Shown piece after piece: positions 5,167 through 37,832 of a DNA stretch of 40,596 bases. The position numbers were made by a program, and so were the translations under genes. The stretch spans positions 1 through 40,596 of the forward strand of contig CANQMP010000015.1 in the NCBI GenBank assembly GCA_947624975.1, written 5' to 3'. The first letter of the stretch is position 1; every line of letters begins with the position of its first letter. Source of the stretch: Candidatus Gastranaerophilales bacterium (lineage in GTDB: Bacteria; Cyanobacteriota; Vampirovibrionia; Gastranaerophilales; Gastranaerophilaceae). The notes beneath the pieces are model-generated. The model was not told the origin of the DNA and searched no databases. It saw only the letters and a list, made by a program, of their open reading frames with translations.

Positions 5167-5484
5167 ATGGCTATTGATATTAATGATACTAATTTTGAAC
5201 AAGAAGTTTTGAATTGTGAACAGCCTGTTGTTGTAGACTTTTGGGCACCCTGGTGCGGGCCTTGCAGAAAACTCGGCCCTGTTCTCGATGAAATCGCAAC
5301 AGAATTTGAAAACAAAGTTAAATTTGTAAAAGTTAACACGGATGAAAACTTGAAAACCGCTCAAGATTACTCAATAAGCGGATTACCTAGCTTACTGGTA
5401 TTCAAAAACGGCAAGGCATTGGAAAGATTAGTCGGTTTGATGCCTAAATCAACCATTATTTCCAATATTGAAAAACATTTATAA
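5167..5484 (+). CDS. trxA: Thioredoxin
   Basis: A standard 105-residue thioredoxin that reduces protein disulfides in the cytoplasm. The active site WAPWCGPCRK holds the WCGPC motif, followed by the conserved KVNTDEN and the cis-proline segment SGLPSLLVFKNG. No signal peptide is present. AAAGGAGAAAATAAAA ahead of the ATG is a strong ribosome binding site. It is transcribed divergently from the exonuclease operon across an 82-base gap and ends at its own terminator, so it is monocistronic. Confidence 0.96.
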   Translation: MAIDINDTNFEQEVLNCEQPVVVDFWAPWCGPCRKLGPVLDEIATEFENKVKFVKVNTDENLKTAQDYSISGLPSLLVFKNGKALERLVGLMPKSTIISNIEKHL

Positions 5485-5503
5485 TTTTTAACAAAAATTT
5501 ACT

Positions 5504-5534
5504 AAAAAAACGGCAGTGAAACTGTCGTTTTTTT
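5504..5534 (+). terminator. Rho-independent terminator of trxA
   Basis: CGGCAG pairs with CTGTCG (one G-T pair) around a TGAAA loop. It is flanked by seven A and about eight T residues, 20 bases past the trxA stop. Confidence 0.88.
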
Positions 5535-5578
5535 ATGTTACGGAATGTAAATTTTATTTAAAATCTGCCCGAAATTAT

Positions 5579-5606
5579 TAAAGTTTCCCTTAAATAAAGC
5601 CGATAA
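5579..5606 (+). promoter_or_regulatory. Sigma-28 (FliA/SigD)-type promoter before the giant protein gene
   Basis: TAAAGTTT (5579-5586) and GCCGATAA (5599-5606) both match the enterobacterial sigma-28 consensus at all eight positions. The distance from TAAA to GCCGATAA is 16 bases, one more than the E. coli optimum and within the range described for sigma-28/SigD promoters. Transcription would begin near 5613, about 14 bases before the ATG, leaving AAAGGA in the leader. A second site with the same spacing is at 22565. Confidence 0.75.
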
Positions 5607-5626
5607 ATCAATTAAAGGAAACAATT

Positions 5627-8600
5627 ATGAGAATAAACGGATTACCAAATAAATTCGAAATATTCCAAGATTTCTACTATGAAATGAATGGAGAGCGTAT
5701 CTCCTATAATGAAGCTTTGACTTTATATTCAGAAATGGATGAGGAGGTAAAGGCTGAATTTGAAAAATATTATAAAGATGAAACAGGTTATGATGTATTA
5801 AATTATTCGGGTTATAATCTTGATATTACAGACTGTTTCAATGCCGACGGCACTGTTAAAGATGCTTATATTAACATAATCAGCCGTTACGACAGTATAA
5901 GAGCTGCACTGGACGCTTATGCAAAGAAAAATGATTTGATTATTGACCCTCAATGGGCGGGTTATTCTGCAGAAGAAATTATTCAGATGGAAAATGACGG
6001 AGTTTATATTCCTAAAGAAGTTTTAGACATTGCACACACAATATATGAAACAAGCGGAGCAAACATTGAAGATTCCGATGAAAGTGCGGACGATGAAAGT
6101 GAAACTACGACCGAAAAAGAGCCGTTTTTGGACTTAATTCCTAAGGCAAAAAAATATATCGAAAAATGTAACAATAAAAATGAAGAAGTAAGCGACAAAA
6201 TACAAGAACTCCTTCCCGAACAGGCAAAAGCGAAAAAAGCCTTTATTCAGCAGATACAAGACCAAAAGGCTCAATTAAAAGAATATGAAGAAATCATCAG
6301 AGAATGGAGAAGTTTACAGAACAAAATTAATAACGGCGAACCTTTGTCTTCATCCGAAGCAAAACGTTATGCCCAAATTACAGGCATGCTTGAAGATAAA
6401 AACACCAAAGAAGGCGTAGCCGAAACATTTGATAAATTTAAAATGGCGATGACTTTAAACGAAATCAACGTCATGGCAGTTTTGGGCGAAAAGCTTGCAA
6501 ATGATACCATTGAAATCGGTGATACGCTTGCAGATTACACTTCAAAGAAAAATTATAAAAACACCCGTTCTCAGGCAAGTTCAAGTATCGGTTTCTGGGG
6601 AGCTATACTTGCAATGATAAAAGGTAAAGCACTTGCAAAAGATGCGTCATTAACGGGTAATGATACTAAAGAATACATGGATGAAAGCCACGGTTCGGCA
6701 ATGAATATCGCAAGTATGATGGGTGTTCAAGGCTTTATGTCTGATGTAAGTGTTCCGCAGGAAGTAGAAGAACCTTCAGTTGATGAGCAGGCACAAATTC
6801 AGGAAAGCCAAACCGAAGGTCAACCCGAAGAAGTTCAGTCGGCAGAAGAAACATCGGATGCAGAAAATGTTGATGATACTCAGGCTAAAGAAGAAATCGA
6901 CAACCCCGAAGTTACCCCCGAAGAAGATTTTATTGTTAATGACGATTCCGTAAAAGATTTGAGCGGTGACGCTGATGACATTTTAGGAGATTTTATAAAA
7001 CAAATTGCAACGGCTTCCAAAAATAACAGCGCAGCTAAAAAAGACAGCACGTATGCAAAATTTGTTGATAAAAAACTTGCAAGATACATCAAAGAATACC
7101 AGTCTTGGGAAGAAGAACGCAAAAAAGAAATTGAAGAACTTGAAGAAGAAAATAAAAAATTAAAAGAAGAAATTGAAGAATTAACAGGTGAAACGGAAGA
7201 AGAAATTGATGAAGAACTCAATTCCGAAAAATCGAATGAGCAGGATGACGATGACAACAAAACGAAAGGTAATTTTATTGAGCGTTCACAAGCTAAAATG
7301 AAAAAAGCAAAAATAAAAGATAACAATAACAAAATTGAAAGCATACAAAACGAAGAAGATGATTCGCTTGAAACTTTCAAATCCAAAACGGACGGTATTA
7401 AATCACAACTTAACCAAAGAATCCCGAAAGAATCACAAGCTTACGGGGGCGATTTGGAATACGCCGAAAAGATTATTCCCGAAGGAATTGAGAAACTGAA
7501 TTTTACGGGCGCATCAGGTAAAACGCTCAAAAGAATGGGCAAATACAGAATTACTGTTGGTCTTGAACAAATAGCTTCATTACAGTTCAGAAAAGGTATG
7601 AAAAATGTTGCTAAAGGTACAATCAGTTCATTAATCGGTATGGAAGCGGCAATAAAAGGAAAATCACATGTTCCAAAACTCACTAAAAAAGTAACCGAAT
7701 CTGCGGTTAGCAACGAAGAAAAAGCTTTAAACAGTTTAACATCAATGGATTCTTCCATTGTTGAAATTACGGGAGATGACGCGGCATCACAACCTCATCT
7801 TGAAAATGCTCAGGAAAATTCGCAAGAAGGTGAAGGTGCAAACGGTGAAGAAAATTCTCAAGGCGTCGAAACCCCAGAAGGCACTGAACAAACAGCCGAA
7901 ACTCCCGTCGGAGCTGAGGAAAATGCAGTTTCGGAAGAACCGATAGTTCCTGAAGAAAACGCAGCGACACAAACTAATCAAACAGAAAATCCAACTACAT
8001 CCGATAATACTCAAGAAGAAGTCAATGTAATTGCTCAAGCAGCTCCCGAATCAGTCAAGGTTGAGCCCACGGGAACAACGGATTCAAATGATATCGAAAA
8101 TGCCGCTGATAAGGTTACCGAAAATACGTCAACAAACATTCAAAGTGCTCAAAGCAACCCTGAGGATGCTGTTAATGAAGCACAAGATGCGGGTGAAAAA
8201 GTAGGAGATGTTACAGGCGGCAAAGAAAAATCCGTAAGCAGTAAAGATGATAAAGAAGATATGGATACGGATAAAGCTGAAGAAGTCGTTGATGATGCTG
8301 CCGATGAAGGTCAGGATTCAAGTGATGATTCCGAAAAAGTTTTAAAAGATACGGAAAAAGACGAAAAACAACTTAAAAAAGAAACTCAAAAACTTGAAAA
8401 AGAAATGAAACGTGACCAGAAAGAAATTGAAAAATTAGCCGAAAGAAATCAGGAAGAGGTTCAAAAACAAACTGAGTTATTGGCACGTTACGAACAGATA
8501 TCCACAGAAAGCGAAAAGTTAGCAGAAGAAGATGAAGCTGCTGCTGCAAGCAGCGGAGATGAAACGCAAGGTACTACTACGGGATTCGCCGTAAGCAGTG

Positions 8601-10603
8601 CCGGAGGTTCAGATCATGTAGATGAATTGCAGAACAACAGTGCTGAAGTTGATGTAATTGCAACAGAATTCCAAAATTCCAATTTAACAGTTACAAATAA
8701 TCAGTCAAAAATTCAAAAACTTCAAAAGACAAATACTAAAAGATTAAAACAGTATGATAAGAAAAATAAAATCAGAGATAAAAAGATTCAAGAAGCCGAA
8801 AAGAAAGAAAACGAAAAAAATAAAAGAAACCAAAAATTACTTGGTATAGTCGGCATTCAAGAAAACATTTTTTCAATTACCTCCATAACAGGTCAAATAA
8901 TGGAAAAAGTTGTACTTCCTCCATGGGTGTCTGTTGTCGGAGCAATTATGCATACTGTTGGTGATATGGGTATGATTGCCTGCAGTGTTACAAAAGCTAT
9001 CATAAATCTTGCCATCGGTAATCTTACGGGTGCATTAATGGGACTTGCAACAACTGCATTATCGATGGTTGGCGGAGCTTCTTCCGTTACAAGCAAATTC
9101 GGCAGTGTTATGACGGCTGTATCTCAAGGTATGAGTGTTGTTTCAAACACTGCAGATTTGGTAAACAATGTAAGAGCCGTACAAGGTAAACAAGCCAACG
9201 GTTTGATGAGTAAAATTTCCGCAATCGCAGGTGCAGTAGGTTCTGTTTCAAGTTCGGCAGCATCACTTTCAGGCGGTTTAAGCAAAGGATTACAAGGTGC
9301 TGCACAAATCGCAGGAGTTGTCGGTTCGGTAACTTCTTCAACAGGCTCAATTATGGGCGAATTCGGCGGAAATCAGAAACTCGCAGGAATTTTGATGACT
9401 GTAGGAAGCAGCATGAGTTTAGCTTCTTCAGCTGTAGGTTTGCTGGCATCTTCAGGTAAGAACGAAGATACTAAAGACAGTAAAAAATCTGAAGAAAGCA
9501 AAAGTGAAAATACGAAACAAACCGACGGTAATTCAGAAACTAAAAATAATTCGGAAACTAAATCCGAAAATAATTCGGAAACCAAATCAGAAACGAAATC
9601 TGAAACCGAAACCAAGTCCGAAACGAAATCAGAAACAAAATCTTCAGAGTCCGAAACAAAAGAAACTTCAAGTGATACTTCGGAAAGCAAAGAAGCTAAA
9701 AGAAATGCAAAAAAAGCTGAAAAAGAAGCTAAGAAAGCTCAAAAAGAAGCTGACAATGCTGCGAAAAAAGCTCAGAAAGAGGCTGATAAGGCTGCGAAAA
9801 AAGCCGACAAAGCTGCAAAGAAAGCTCAAAAAGAAGCCGACAAAGCTGCGAAAAAAGCTCAGAAAGAGGCTGACAAGGCTGCTAAAAAAGCTGAAAAAGA
9901 AGCTAAAAAAGCTCAAAAAGAAGATAAAAAGGCAAAAGAAGATAATAAAGCAAAAGAAGAAAAACAAAATAAAGGCTCTCAATCGGTCGACAATAATTCT
10001 CAAAATAATTCTCAAAATCCCTCACAGTCTACACAAACACCTTCACAATCAGATAAAGGTCAAATTGCAGAACTTTCGCAAAAAACGGGCATGTCACAGC
10101 AAGAAGTTGCTGAAGCAAAAGCTGAACTCAAAAATGTAGCAGCAAATGATAATAACCAACCAAATAATCAGGCGAATAATCAAAATCAAGCAGACGCTCA
10201 GGAAGCTCCTAAATCGGTAACAACTGAAGATATGCAGGCTGAGTCAGCACAAACTCTTAAAACACAGCTTGAACAGATGAAAGCTGACAGCTTAGAAAAA
10301 GCAAATGCATCTGCACAAGAAAGTATGAATAAACTTTCTCAAAAGATTAACGAAGAACAGGCAAGTAAAATTGCTGCAAAACAAGCAAAAATGAAAAGAA
10401 TCGAAACCTTTAACAAAGTTATGGATATGACAGGTTACGCGGCTTCTGCTCTTACAAATATTCTCAGTTCAAAAGATAATCAGGAAAATAAAGCTAAAAA
10501 ACCTGCACCTATCATAAAATTGTCTGAAAGAGCCAAAAGAATTATTGCTATTGACAGTGCGGAAAGAAGCCGTTTGCTCAAAAAATACGGAAAAATCGGT
10601 TAA
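5627..10603 (+). CDS. Giant coiled-coil/low-complexity protein of 1658 residues with a hydrophobic core
   Basis: I do not recognise a family. The N-terminus (1-147) looks globular and has no signal peptide; it begins MRINGLPNKFEIF. After it come an acidic spacer (148-165), a helical stretch (198-235), a Glu/Gln-rich linker (376-438), a strong coiled coil (481-531), a long acidic disordered region (708-905), further coils (905-965 and 1028-1075), and a 180-residue hydrophobic Gly/Ala/Ser-rich region (about 1092-1275) with several possible membrane helices. Then follow SETK repeats (1283-1354), 11-residue KKAQKEADKAA repeats (1358-1444), an Asn/Gln-rich linker, a last coil, and a basic tail. 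AAAGGAAACAATT is the ribosome binding site. The sigma-28-like promoter hints at a flagellar-type or surface regulon; the function is unknown. Long antisense frames inside it are composition artefacts. Confidence 0.9.
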   Translation: MRINGLPNKFEIFQDFYYEMNGERISYNEALTLYSEMDEEVKAEFEKYYKDETGYDVLNYSGYNLDITDCFNADGTVKDAYINIISRYDSIRAALDAYAKKNDLIIDPQWAGYSAEEIIQMENDGVYIPKEVLDIAHTIYETSGANIEDSDESADDESETTTEKEPFLDLIPKAKKYIEKCNNKNEEVSDKIQELLPEQAKAKKAFIQQIQDQKAQLKEYEEIIREWRSLQNKINNGEPLSSSEAKRYAQITGMLEDKNTKEGVAETFDKFKMAMTLNEINVMAVLGEKLANDTIEIGDTLADYTSKKNYKNTRSQASSSIGFWGAILAMIKGKALAKDASLTGNDTKEYMDESHGSAMNIASMMGVQGFMSDVSVPQEVEEPSVDEQAQIQESQTEGQPEEVQSAEETSDAENVDDTQAKEEIDNPEVTPEEDFIVNDDSVKDLSGDADDILGDFIKQIATASKNNSAAKKDSTYAKFVDKKLARYIKEYQSWEEERKKEIEELEEENKKLKEEIEELTGETEEEIDEELNSEKSNEQDDDDNKTKGNFIERSQAKMKKAKIKDNNNKIESIQNEEDDSLETFKSKTDGIKSQLNQRIPKESQAYGGDLEYAEKIIPEGIEKLNFTGASGKTLKRMGKYRITVGLEQIASLQFRKGMKNVAKGTISSLIGMEAAIKGKSHVPKLTKKVTESAVSNEEKALNSLTSMDSSIVEITGDDAASQPHLENAQENSQEGEGANGEENSQGVETPEGTEQTAETPVGAEENAVSEEPIVPEENAATQTNQTENPTTSDNTQEEVNVIAQAAPESVKVEPTGTTDSNDIENAADKVTENTSTNIQSAQSNPEDAVNEAQDAGEKVGDVTGGKEKSVSSKDDKEDMDTDKAEEVVDDAADEGQDSSDDSEKVLKDTEKDEKQLKKETQKLEKEMKRDQKEIEKLAERNQEEVQKQTELLARYEQISTESEKLAEEDEAAAASSGDETQGTTTGFAVSSAGGSDHVDELQNNSAEVDVIATEFQNSNLTVTNNQSKIQKLQKTNTKRLKQYDKKNKIRDKKIQEAEKKENEKNKRNQKLLGIVGIQENIFSITSITGQIMEKVVLPPWVSVVGAIMHTVGDMGMIACSVTKAIINLAIGNLTGALMGLATTALSMVGGASSVTSKFGSVMTAVSQGMSVVSNTADLVNNVRAVQGKQANGLMSKISAIAGAVGSVSSSAASLSGGLSKGLQGAAQIAGVVGSVTSSTGSIMGEFGGNQKLAGILMTVGSSMSLASSAVGLLASSGKNEDTKDSKKSEESKSENTKQTDGNSETKNNSETKSENNSETKSETKSETETKSETKSETKSSESETKETSSDTSESKEAKRNAKKAEKEAKKAQKEADNAAKKAQKEADKAAKKADKAAKKAQKEADKAAKKAQKEADKAAKKAEKEAKKAQKEDKKAKEDNKAKEEKQNKGSQSVDNNSQNNSQNPSQSTQTPSQSDKGQIAELSQKTGMSQQEVAEAKAELKNVAANDNNQPNNQANNQNQADAQEAPKSVTTEDMQAESAQTLKTQLEQMKADSLEKANASAQESMNKLSQKINEEQASKIAAKQAKMKRIETFNKVMDMTGYAASALTNILSSKDNQENKAKKPAPIIKLSERAKRIIAIDSAERSRLLKKYGKIG
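9520..9960 (+). repeat. Tandem coding repeats: SETK units, then 33-bp KKAQKEADKAA units
   Basis: Inside the giant gene, 9520-9690 encodes repeated (S)ETKSE units. From about 9742 to 9920 it encodes an 11-residue unit KKAQKEADKAA (33 bp) in several near-identical copies, with a degenerate lysine-rich tail to 9960. The protein repeat is predicted to form a long charged single helix, as in TolA-type stalks. DNA repeats of this kind can change copy number by slippage or recombination. Confidence 0.85.
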
Positions 10604-26751: not shown

Positions 26752-27438
26752 TTGTCAAAACTCACCGAAAAACACAACTATAAAGGCACATTGATTTGTG
26801 TGGAAGGTATAGACGGGTCGGGTAAATCCACTCAACTGGCACTTTTGCGTGACTGGTTAAAATCTATCGGACAGGATGTAATTTTTACCGAATGGAATTC
26901 GTCCGAACTTATCAGCCAGACCACAAAACTTGCGAAAAAGAAAAATATGCTTTCTCCTCGGACTTTTTCACTTTTGCATGCCGTGGATTTTGCAGACAGA
27001 CTTAAACAGGTCATCGACCCTGCCTTGAAAGCAGGATTTATCGTACTTGCGGACAGGTACGCTTACACGGCTTTTGCAAGAGATGTGGCAAGAGGCGTTG
27101 ATGCAAAATGGGTCAGAAATGTTTATAACTTCGCCATAAAACCCGATTTGGCAATATATTTTGACATTAACCCGAAAGAATCCATGGAAAGAATTTGTGC
27201 TAACCGTGCTCCAAAATTCTACGAGGCAGGCATGGATTTGAAATTGAGCAGTGACCCCTATGAAAGCTACATGATTTTTCAGGGCAGAGTAATAAAAGAA
27301 TATCAGAAAATGGTTAAAGAATTCGGACTCGTTAAACTCGATGCGATGGATACAATTCATTCAAAACAAGTTACCATAAGGAAAATGCTCAAAGAAGTTC
27401 TAAAAGAAAAAGGAGTGGACTTGAATGACGAAATTTAA
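26752..27438 (+). CDS. tmk: Thymidylate kinase-like protein, first of a tandem pair
   Basis: 228 residues with the Tmk fold: P-loop EGIDGSGKSTQL, the dTMP-side DRYAYTAFARDV motif, and IYFDINP. Tmk phosphorylates dTMP to dTDP. The segment after the P-loop (FTEWNSSELISQTTKLAKKK) and the lid region (SMERICANRAPKFYEAGMDL) differ from classic Tmk, where DRYxxSxxAYQ is usual; here it is DRYxxTxxARD. So the substrate may be another nucleoside monophosphate. The start is TTG with GGAAGGGG upstream. It overlaps the next paralogue by 14 bases. Confidence 0.75.
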   Translation: MSKLTEKHNYKGTLICVEGIDGSGKSTQLALLRDWLKSIGQDVIFTEWNSSELISQTTKLAKKKNMLSPRTFSLLHAVDFADRLKQVIDPALKAGFIVLADRYAYTAFARDVARGVDAKWVRNVYNFAIKPDLAIYFDINPKESMERICANRAPKFYEAGMDLKLSSDPYESYMIFQGRVIKEYQKMVKEFGLVKLDAMDTIHSKQVTIRKMLKEVLKEKGVDLNDEI

Positions 27439-28096
27439 AACAAAAAACGGATATGACGGTTTACTCATAGTAATAGAAGGTACTGACGGGTCGGGAAAAT
27501 CCACCCAGCTTGAACTTTTGAAAAAATCAATTCAGGCACAGTCTTACGGTGTAATGGTTTCCGAGTGGAAAACCTCAAGACTTATTGCAGGTGTAATTGA
27601 TGATGCAAAAGACCGAAACCTGCTTAACGCAACGACTTACAGCCTTTTGTATGCCGCAGATTTCGCAGACAGGCTGGAAAACCAGATTATTCCCGCATTA
27701 AAATCGGGATTTATTGTTCTTTTGGACAGATACTATTACACGGCACTGGCACGTGACGTGGTCAGAGGTCAGGATATCGAATGGGTTAAAAACCTTTACG
27801 GCTACGCACCCGAGCCTGATTTGGTATTCTATCTTGACATGCCAGTTGATGTCTTGCTTAAACGAATTATCGGCACAACAGGTTTGGATTTTTATGAAAG
27901 CGGCAGAGATGTCGGATTTTCAACCGATTTTTACAAGTCTTTTGAAATTTATCAGAAAAAATGCCTTGAACAGTACAACAATATGAAATCCGAGTTTAAT
28001 TTTAAAAGCATTGACGGGACAAAATCCATCAAAGAAATTCATTCCGTTATGAGCGAAGAAGTACAAAAACTCCTTAATTCAGGTGTTTTGCAATAA
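27425..28096 (+). CDS. tmk: Thymidylate kinase-like protein, second of a tandem pair
   Basis: 223 residues, collinear with the upstream protein: EGTDGSGKSTQL, SEWKTSRLI, DRYYYTALARDVVRG and VFYLDMPVDVLLKRI. The two proteins align over their whole length but differ at well over half the positions by eye, so the duplication is old. Both keep the P-loop and the DRY motif. AAAGGAG lies ahead of the ATG, inside the upstream gene. Either could be the essential dTMP kinase; the other may act on another nucleotide, or the two may form a heterodimer. Confidence 0.75.
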   Translation: MTKFKTKNGYDGLLIVIEGTDGSGKSTQLELLKKSIQAQSYGVMVSEWKTSRLIAGVIDDAKDRNLLNATTYSLLYAADFADRLENQIIPALKSGFIVLLDRYYYTALARDVVRGQDIEWVKNLYGYAPEPDLVFYLDMPVDVLLKRIIGTTGLDFYESGRDVGFSTDFYKSFEIYQKKCLEQYNNMKSEFNFKSIDGTKSIKEIHSVMSEEVQKLLNSGVLQ

Positions 28097-36350: not shown

Positions 36351-37832
36351 TTATTTTTCTTCGACAAATTCGCCGATTTTATGCTGTTTTCTGAACGCCT
36401 GACTTGTGATTTGACCGCGGAATCTTTCGTTACAGAATTTATCTTTATCTCTGAGTACGGATTTTTCATAATCCTTTTGAGCTTGAATTCTGTCTTTGTT
36501 TCCTTCGGCTTTTTCGCAACCGCTCGGGATAAGAATTTCTGTACCGACAAGAAATCCTTCATAAGCTTTTTTGTCATCACAATTATATGAATTGTGGAAA
36601 CGTTTAAGTTTATCGGCATTGAGTCTTTTGATTTCGTCAATGCTTACGCCGTATTTCTTGGAAAGTTTTGCCAGAGATTCACCGTTTTGAACGATTACCT
36701 TACAAGGTTCTTTTTCCGGTTCAGCAGGCGGTTCTTCCTGAAGAACTTCTTCCTGATGAACTTCTTCTTCCGGAACTTCTTCTTGTACCGGTGGAATATC
36801 TGCCGGCGGAACTTCTTCCGGTTCATCGTGAGTCGGTTCCGGTGACGGTAATTGTTCGTTAAGTTTCGGTTCATAAACTCTGTCCTCGACTCCGCCCGGA
36901 TCTTTTCCTGCAAGTAATGCTCCGAGCACACCGCCTATGGGTGCAGTAACCGCTGCTGCATTAACGGATGCTTTAGCTCCAGCTACTGCTCCTGCTGCAG
37001 CTCCCGCAGATGAGGCAGCTGAAGTTGATAAACTTTTGGACACTATATCAAACGGTGCGCCGACAGCTCCGCCAAGTGCCGCAAAAATTCCCGCACTTGC
37101 GATATTAATTAACGTAGAATAATCTTTTTCATAATTACCGCCCGTAGATTTTACTATTTTACGCAAAGTTTTGTCGTCACAACCGAGTACCTGACCCATC
37201 AAACGTGCTTCTTTCAAGCTCATGTGATAGTTATCAACCTCTAAATCATTTGTTGCAGGGTTCATTAAACCTTTAACAAATTTTTTGATTTTCTCCTGAG
37301 AAAGATTACCGTTCTCGTCATAGAAAACTTCTTTGTTGTTTTCCAAAATTTTCAAAGCTTTTTTGTTTTTAAGAAGTTTATTCTGTACGGTGAGGGATTC
37401 TGCAATATCTTTTGCCTCACTTCTCGATTTATTTTCTTTCCTTAAAGAGTCATAAATCTGTTTGTACTTTTCTTTTGACGCTTTTTCAGCATTTTTAAAT
37501 TCTTCTTTGTTGTCAAAAGTTTTTGTCATGTAAAATTCGTATTTTTCTTTTTCGTTTTTTACATAGGCTTTTGCAAGTTTTTTGGCTTCTTTTTCGTCTT
37601 TGCCGCTCATAATGAATAAATTTTCGATTTCTTTGGTTTGGTTTTTCTCATAACCCTTTAGTTTGTAAGGATTGTAACCAACATACTCCATCTCGGAAAC
37701 ATCATTGTTTGTTTCAACCGTAACGGTTTTTCCTCCGAGAGGCACGGACATCATTTTGCCATTTTCTACCACAAGTGCAGGCTTAGTAAGCTGTACCTGT
37801 CCATTGATTCTTTCAACTCCATTTAATCCCAT
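36351..37832 (-). CDS. LysM-domain protein with hydrophobic Gly/Ala segment
   Basis: 493 residues. After a short N-terminal region without a signal peptide (MGLNGVERINGQVQL) comes a charged helical stretch (62-170), a globular part (170-240), and a Gly/Ala/Ser-rich hydrophobic segment (about 243-310) that could enter a membrane. A Pro/Glu-rich linker (320-376) leads to a LysM domain (377-437: VIVQNGESLAKLSKKYGVS...GTEILIPSG), which binds peptidoglycan or chitin-type glycans. The overall plan (unusual N-terminus, coils, hydrophobic Gly/Ala segment, acidic linker) resembles the giant protein at 5627, but direct homology is not shown. AAAGGGG precedes the ATG. Confidence 0.82.
   Translation of the reverse strand: MGLNGVERINGQVQLTKPALVVENGKMMSVPLGGKTVTVETNNDVSEMEYVGYNPYKLKGYEKNQTKEIENLFIMSGKDEKEAKKLAKAYVKNEKEKYEFYMTKTFDNKEEFKNAEKASKEKYKQIYDSLRKENKSRSEAKDIAESLTVQNKLLKNKKALKILENNKEVFYDENGNLSQEKIKKFVKGLMNPATNDLEVDNYHMSLKEARLMGQVLGCDDKTLRKIVKSTGGNYEKDYSTLINIASAGIFAALGGAVGAPFDIVSKSLSTSAASSAGAAAGAVAGAKASVNAAAVTAPIGGVLGALLAGKDPGGVEDRVYEPKLNEQLPSPEPTHDEPEEVPPADIPPVQEEVPEEEVHQEEVLQEEPPAEPEKEPCKVIVQNGESLAKLSKKYGVSIDEIKRLNADKLKRFHNSYNCDDKKAYEGFLVGTEILIPSGCEKAEGNKDRIQAQKDYEKSVLRDKDKFCNERFRGQITSQAFRKQHKIGEFVEEK

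Follow-up and report, generated by a model that had tools for sequence, protein, structure and literature searches.

The DNA analyzed here, hereafter the window, is a stretch of 40,596 nucleotides from Candidatus Gastranaerophilales bacterium (contig CANQMP010000015.1, assembly GCA_947624975.1), and the subject is the region upstream of a gene for a giant protein of 1658 residues. On the evidence of sequence and conservation, the element at 5579–5606 is a genuine sigma-28 (FliA/WhiG-type) promoter, and it is probably the own promoter of the giant gene. The source bacterium and its family appear, from their gene content, to have lost the swimming flagellum. It is fairly probable, judging from sequence comparison and gene content, that sigma-28 was retained to express the late proteins of a second, non-rotating type III system.

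The sigma-28 consensus is matched at 8 of 8 positions by the −35 element TAAAGTTT and at 8 of 8 by the −10 element GCCGATAA (Table 1). The optimum spacer for Escherichia coli FliA is N11, and the spacer here, CCCTTAAATAAA, is one base longer, which equals TAAA-N16 counting. The chance expectation of TAAA-N14-17-GCCGATAA in the window is 0.11. The −10 element ends 20 bases 5′ of the ATG at 5627. Because a terminator-like hairpin lies upstream and a promoter scan of 5300–5800 gave no sigma-70-like promoter, the giant gene is likely to be transcribed separately from the thioredoxin-like gene before it. The hairpin was read by eye and was not picked up by the terminator-finding rule.

The decisive test was the conservation of the promoter with the orthologs of the giant gene. 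Two overlapping sets of orthologs were used, which together contain 41 distinct upstream regions. The motif was present no more than 130 bases upstream in 40 of these 41 regions, while it was found before only one of 280 other open reading frames (ORFs) at the ortholog loci; that one is itself an ortholog, leaving none for unrelated genes. By set, the motif precedes the ortholog at 29 of 29 loci from genus genomes and at 38 of 40 named loci, and at the remaining two it lies farther upstream, ahead of a likely GTG start. Homologs from other genera, whose N-termini are divergent, also retain the promoter. Since the motif is kept before the orthologs while the spacer letters vary, the natural reading is that both the −35 and −10 elements are under selection. 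The full-consensus elements and their spacing had been claimed in the original prediction, made from the window alone, and this claim is borne out.

The genome (1.91 Mb, 59 contigs, 99.95% complete) contains one FliA/WhiG sigma factor above the NCBIfam cut-off (C40:4119-4781; TIGR02479, 233.8 bits against a cut-off of 189.6), and its top PDB matches are WhiG/FliA-type factors. A fliA/sigD gene, which the original prediction had proposed to search for, is thus present. Several further sigma-70-family proteins are encoded, such as that at C12:13735, and one of these, not of the FliA type, might read the motif. However, the C40 protein alone exceeds the FliA/WhiG cut-off, and the motif agrees with the textbook consensus for sigma-28, so that a different factor is very improbable.

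Systematic screening of the genome for further sites, also proposed beforehand, was performed with the stringent pattern AAAGTTT-N10-14-CCGWTAW, and the reversed pattern was used as the control. The pattern matched 19 times, compared with 3 for the control. The spacer is 12 bases long in 16 of these sites, including that of the giant gene, and 11 in the other 3; 16 of the 19 are positioned 17–50 nt ahead of a ribosome-binding site and start codon. A scan allowing two mismatches (124 matches, 106 in the control) was dropped from counting because it was near the control level. In sister species, the sites precede the same gene families. The mean number of motifs per genome is 6.3 in the family, against 1.75 in the MotB-bearing genomes of the order. 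By these sequence comparisons, the motif is the mark of a conserved genome-wide regulon of at least 16 units. At two loci (L060 and L067), short tandem CATAG repeats (CATAGCATAGCATAGCATAG) lie about 20–50 bases upstream of the −35 element.

The majority of the regulon genes belong to no known family. Proteins starting with MG(M/L)(A/S)(A/G)xQAR, which are designated here as QAR proteins, follow exact sites at L056, L059, and L061, and a fourth, at L087, follows a near-site ending GCCGTCAA. In the three QAR proteins that were compared, the ends are conserved and the middle varies, which is the plan of flagellar axial proteins. Another site precedes an SLT muramidase gene that is convergent with flhA; its product has no Sec-like N-terminus and would need another route out. 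Other genes behind sites encode an MgtE_N-domain protein, an HD-GAF protein, and an EF-hand/RHS-repeat protein. The first-gene products of the regulon units examined lack Sec-like N-termini.

The original prediction had offered a motility regulon as one option, and this is unsupported because flagellin, the MotB plug, and the hook protein were not found. Flagellin (PF00669) was not found in the genome, while control genomes were positive. The MotB plug (PF13677) was found in none of 35 family genomes, as opposed to 20 of 22 other genomes of the order. The hook protein FlgE was not found in the genome, where PF00460 yields three rod genes only; it should have been seen if present, because the FlgE of a relative scores 1e-9 with the same profile. 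The evidence fits the second option, in which an alternative sigma factor controls a structure other than a flagellum. Overall, the original prediction is partly supported.

Apparatus genes are kept on three contigs: FliE, FliF, a FliG-like protein, FliH, and FlhA on C16; the rod genes on C22, with FlgB/C/F/G as the rod set; and FliO/P/Q/R with a FliN-domain protein on C3. No match to a FliG domain was seen in the FliG-like protein encoded in the fliF operon; a FliG_C search was not run genome-wide. FlhA is present in 35 of 35 family genomes and intact across about 35 genomes. Although FlhA and FliF are under the equivalog cut-offs (FlhA, 588 bits against the SctV cut-off of 692; FliF, 50 bits against the SctJ cut-off of 162), their flagellar scores are higher than their injectisome scores. 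FliE and the rod proteins (FlgB and FlgC) are flagellar hallmarks without an injectisome counterpart (PMC3459982). A separate gene, L153:8623-10074 (G000:C8), encodes a protein whose match to FlhA is confined to the C-terminal half (profile positions about 307–655). It occurs in nearly all searched genomes, and the copy in the relative G045 (L225:7038-8519) adjoins FliJ-like, FliK-like, FlgD-like, and FlgE genes.

In G045, a flagellated relative, two sets of apparatus genes were recognized. The canonical set lies on one contig and includes FliP/Q/R, a FlhB-like ORF, and FlhA (copy A), with FlgB/FlgC/FliE/FliF/FliG/FliH/FliI further on; its FliG has the N, M, and C domains. The second set, on another contig, is composed of FlgF/FlgG/FlgB/FlgC/SLT/FliE/FliF/two FliG-like/FliH/FlhA/FliI, in which FliI follows FlhA and the second FliG-like protein gives no match to a FliG domain. 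Orthologous second clusters were also found in G040, G044, G037, and partly G042. An SLT gene is part of the second-system rod operon of relatives. G044, G037, and G042 also have flagellar FlhA copies; the full canonical set was traced in G045 only. The FlhA of the source bacterium is 69–77% identical to the second copies and 37–39% identical to the flagellar copies, and in the FlhA tree it groups with the second-set copies, the two kinds being separated at 100/100 support. The same tendency is seen for FlgC (62–66% against 32%) and FliF (48–51% against 27%). The source FliP is 46–49% identical to the flagellar FliP of relatives, as expected if it belongs to the second system, whose FliP was not located in the relatives. 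For the genes compared, the retained apparatus is, by sequence, orthologous to the second system that stands beside the canonical flagellar set in G045.

These relationships bear on two alternatives. Incomplete flagellar gene sets are taken as reduction in passages of PMC3787301 and PMC4040986, and sigma-28 and the apparatus could likewise be remnants of a swimming flagellum that is being lost. Against such decay stand the intact FlhA across the family, the grouping of FlhA, FlgC, and FliF with the paralogous second set, and the regulon sites, which are more numerous than in flagellated relatives; decay is quite improbable, and a simple degraded flagellum is judged unlikely from the FlhA tree and the identities. 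Alternatively, the second set of the relatives might be part of their flagellum, with two FlhA proteins in one machine, and the family here would then have a truncated true basal body, perhaps used for export as in Buchnera. The rod and FliE genes point in this direction, as does the ACD20 cluster of fliF, fliH, flhA, fliI, and flgE in the part of Di Rienzi et al. that describes it. The separate canonical run from FlgB to FliI with a three-domain FliG in G045, besides FliPQR and FlhA copy A, and the second FliG-like protein that lacks a FliG domain match argue for two machines, even though the run was traced in that one genome, and a truncated basal body is improbable, if somewhat less so than decay.

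Two genomes of another family, G047 and G050 (genus g14, family f6), have no MotB plug and only a second-type FlhA score, and have 7 and 10 sigma-28 sites, respectively. This combination suggests that their lineage lost the flagellum in parallel and retained the regulon.

The giant protein was matched in all 33 searched genus genomes, this one included, one of them by C-terminal fragments only, and one sister genus gave a weak match. It was also matched in 40 named loci, many titled Candidatus Gastranaerophilales or Melainabacteria. A contig scan with the single protein as the query returned no matches, and the alignment-based scan succeeded. The N-terminal part is conserved, and the C-terminal tail is of low complexity, rich in Lys, Ala, and Glu. 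Its most widely conserved stretch (Table 1) is common to the divergent homologs of other genera and to one other sigma-28 unit, L086. The kinship with L086 is tentative because it was seen by pattern alone, and the profile of the EII...IP motif gave no score to the L086 copy. The pLDDT (predicted local distance difference test) of the AlphaFold coiled-coil hairpin is mostly 80–90 in the first helix and the early second helix. Type III translocators of the IpaB/SseC family have a coiled coil followed by hydrophobic helices and no Sec signal. The predicted layout of the giant protein recalls theirs; it differs in being several times longer and in having no sequence or fold match to them. The protein is probably exported late or inserted into the envelope as a translocator-like or scaffold-like component, as far as sequence and models can suggest export and role. 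A profile search against PDB gave one match, to a cilia protein (E 0.034), which was judged to be by chance. A 589-aa protein encoded at L202:14360-16129 (G000:C18, minus strand) is weakly paralogous to the coiled-coil part and has counterparts in a number of sister genomes; a full sigma-28 site was not found upstream of it.

The proposed explanation can be put as follows. The family would have lost its swimming flagellum and kept sigma-28 with its promoters, and sigma-28 would now turn on the late products of the second, motor-less export machine. These products would include the muramidase, the proteins whose ends are conserved while the middle varies, and the giant protein, and would leave the cell independently of Sec. 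The giant protein, with its coiled-coil hairpin followed by weakly hydrophobic helices, may be exported late or inserted into the envelope. Sigma-28 is assigned to the late products of the second system because these lack Sec signals, an SLT gene lies in the second rod operon of relatives, and the conserved ends are axial-like. A broader scenario is also proposed, though tentatively, and it is somewhat doubtful: an old, motor-less, flagellum-derived type III system would exist in Gastranaerophilales beside the true flagella of the swimming families, and in the gut family it would have taken over sigma-28 and lineage-specific substrates, with the giant protein acting as a translocator-like or scaffold-like part in contact with host or neighboring cells.

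Several points weigh against the proposed explanation. Its support consists of sequence comparison, predicted models, and co-occurrence. The rod, fliE-flhA, and fliO-fliR operons here have no exact sigma-28 site immediately before them, and the link between regulon and apparatus therefore rests on co-occurrence and the muramidase; the enrichment of the motif at flagellar genes anticipated in the original prediction is not seen, as the sites mostly precede uncharacterized genes, with one convergent with flhA. Some units are not obviously related to export (the HD-GAF protein and a TPR protein), and the TPR protein, whose gene follows a short first ORF in its unit, has a signal peptide. The giant protein matches no Pfam family at E up to 1 and no NCBIfam family, and the AlphaFold models of residues 1–370 (pLDDT 67) and 893–1280 (pLDDT 61) have no significant PDB match. 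The apparatus as described covers the genes named above and not FlhB, FliI, or FlgM, so that its completeness would be an assumption.

Part of this evidence would suit another view, in which sigma-28 took on a new role as a general regulator, late-stage or surface, without a type III tie and the giant protein is a non-exported intracellular or envelope scaffold. The many regulon genes without a known family, the presence of a regulatory HD-GAF protein in the regulon, and the apparatus operons without a directly preceding site are consistent with it. So is Chlamydia trachomatis, in which sigma-28 is kept without flagella and serves the late genes hctB and tsp (PMC10597470). It leaves aside the muramidase, which lacks a Sec-like N-terminus and whose gene follows a site beside flhA, the regulon proteins with conserved ends around a variable middle, and the family-wide retention of FlhA. 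A general regulator of this kind is rather unlikely.

Compared with the late flagellar promoters of FliA/SigD, the promoters here share both elements, the cognate sigma family, and a short leader before the start codon. They differ in the spacer of 12 instead of 11, in the units seen, which have no flagellin, motor, or chemotaxis genes, and in that a flagellum was not detected. Sigma-28-dependent non-flagellar genes are reportedly coexpressed with the flagellar export machine, going by the title of the 2012 work of Barrero-Tobon and Hendrixson; the flagellum is complete there and the bacterium swims, while flagellin and motor were not found here. The nearest precedents are the sigma-28 of Chlamydia and the basal-body-only Buchnera. 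Chlamydia is alike in having sigma-28 and late genes in a bacterium without a flagellum, but two genes are concerned there and at least 16 units of other families here. In Buchnera, the flagellum is cut down to the basal body, which was proposed to be an export device, according to a citation within PMC3459982; the machine here differs in that it would descend from a second set, paralogous to the flagellar one, and in having a conserved sigma-28 regulon beside it. Passages of Soo et al. 2014 (PMC4040986) judge most gene sets unable to encode a functional flagellum, and neither the second system nor a sigma-28 regulon is described in the portions of that paper and of Di Rienzi et al. consulted. 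A text search of a limited literature returned no paper on a type III system in Gastranaerophilales and no earlier description of the finding.

If true, the proposed explanation would provide a natural case of a flagellar late-gene switch that outlives the flagellum and serves another export machine. It would offer a function that can be tested for the incomplete flagellar gene sets of gut Melainabacteria, until now taken as reduction, and, in a gut lineage that is common but poorly understood, would single out at least 16 units as candidates for secretion or for the surface. The pair of systems in the relatives may also inform the origin of non-rotating type III systems from flagella.

Table 1. 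Features at and around the sigma-28 promoter and within the giant gene (positions in the window).
Feature	Position	Strand	Basis or remark
Upstream thioredoxin-like gene, separate unit	5167..5484	+	ORF; WCGPC motif in translation
Terminator-like hairpin ACGGCAG-TGAAA-CTGTCGT and T run, end of thioredoxin-like gene	5510..5534	+	By eye
−35 element TAAAGTTT of the sigma-28 promoter	5579..5586	+	Sequence; kept before orthologs
12-base spacer CCCTTAAATAAA	5587..5598	+	Sequence; letters vary among ortholog loci
−10 element GCCGATAA	5599..5606	+	Sequence; CCGATA kept before orthologs
Predicted transcription start	5611..5614	+	Promoter geometry, 5–8 bases past −10
Shine-Dalgarno AAAGGA	5614..5619	+	Sequence
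1658-aa protein (P0001), no signal peptide	5627..10603	+	Open ORF
Residues 103–137, motif D-P-x-W/Y...S-x-x-EII-x-M...GVxIP	5933..6037	+	Most widely conserved stretch
Residues 894–1094, predicted coiled-coil hairpin	8306..8908	+	AlphaFold, two long helices
Residues 1090–1275, weakly hydrophobic Gly/Ala/Ser-rich helices	8894..9451	+	Hydropathy; low-confidence model; conserved in orthologs

Elsewhere in the window, a gene at 36351–37832 (minus strand) encodes a 493-aa LysM-domain protein with no obvious Sec signal, and a sigma-28 site was not found in the 150 bases upstream of it. The Rfam scan of the window gave no matches. A second TAAA-N16-GCCGATAA match, without the GTTT part, is located at 27867–27894 on the minus strand, antisense within the ORF 27425–28096, and is most likely due to chance.
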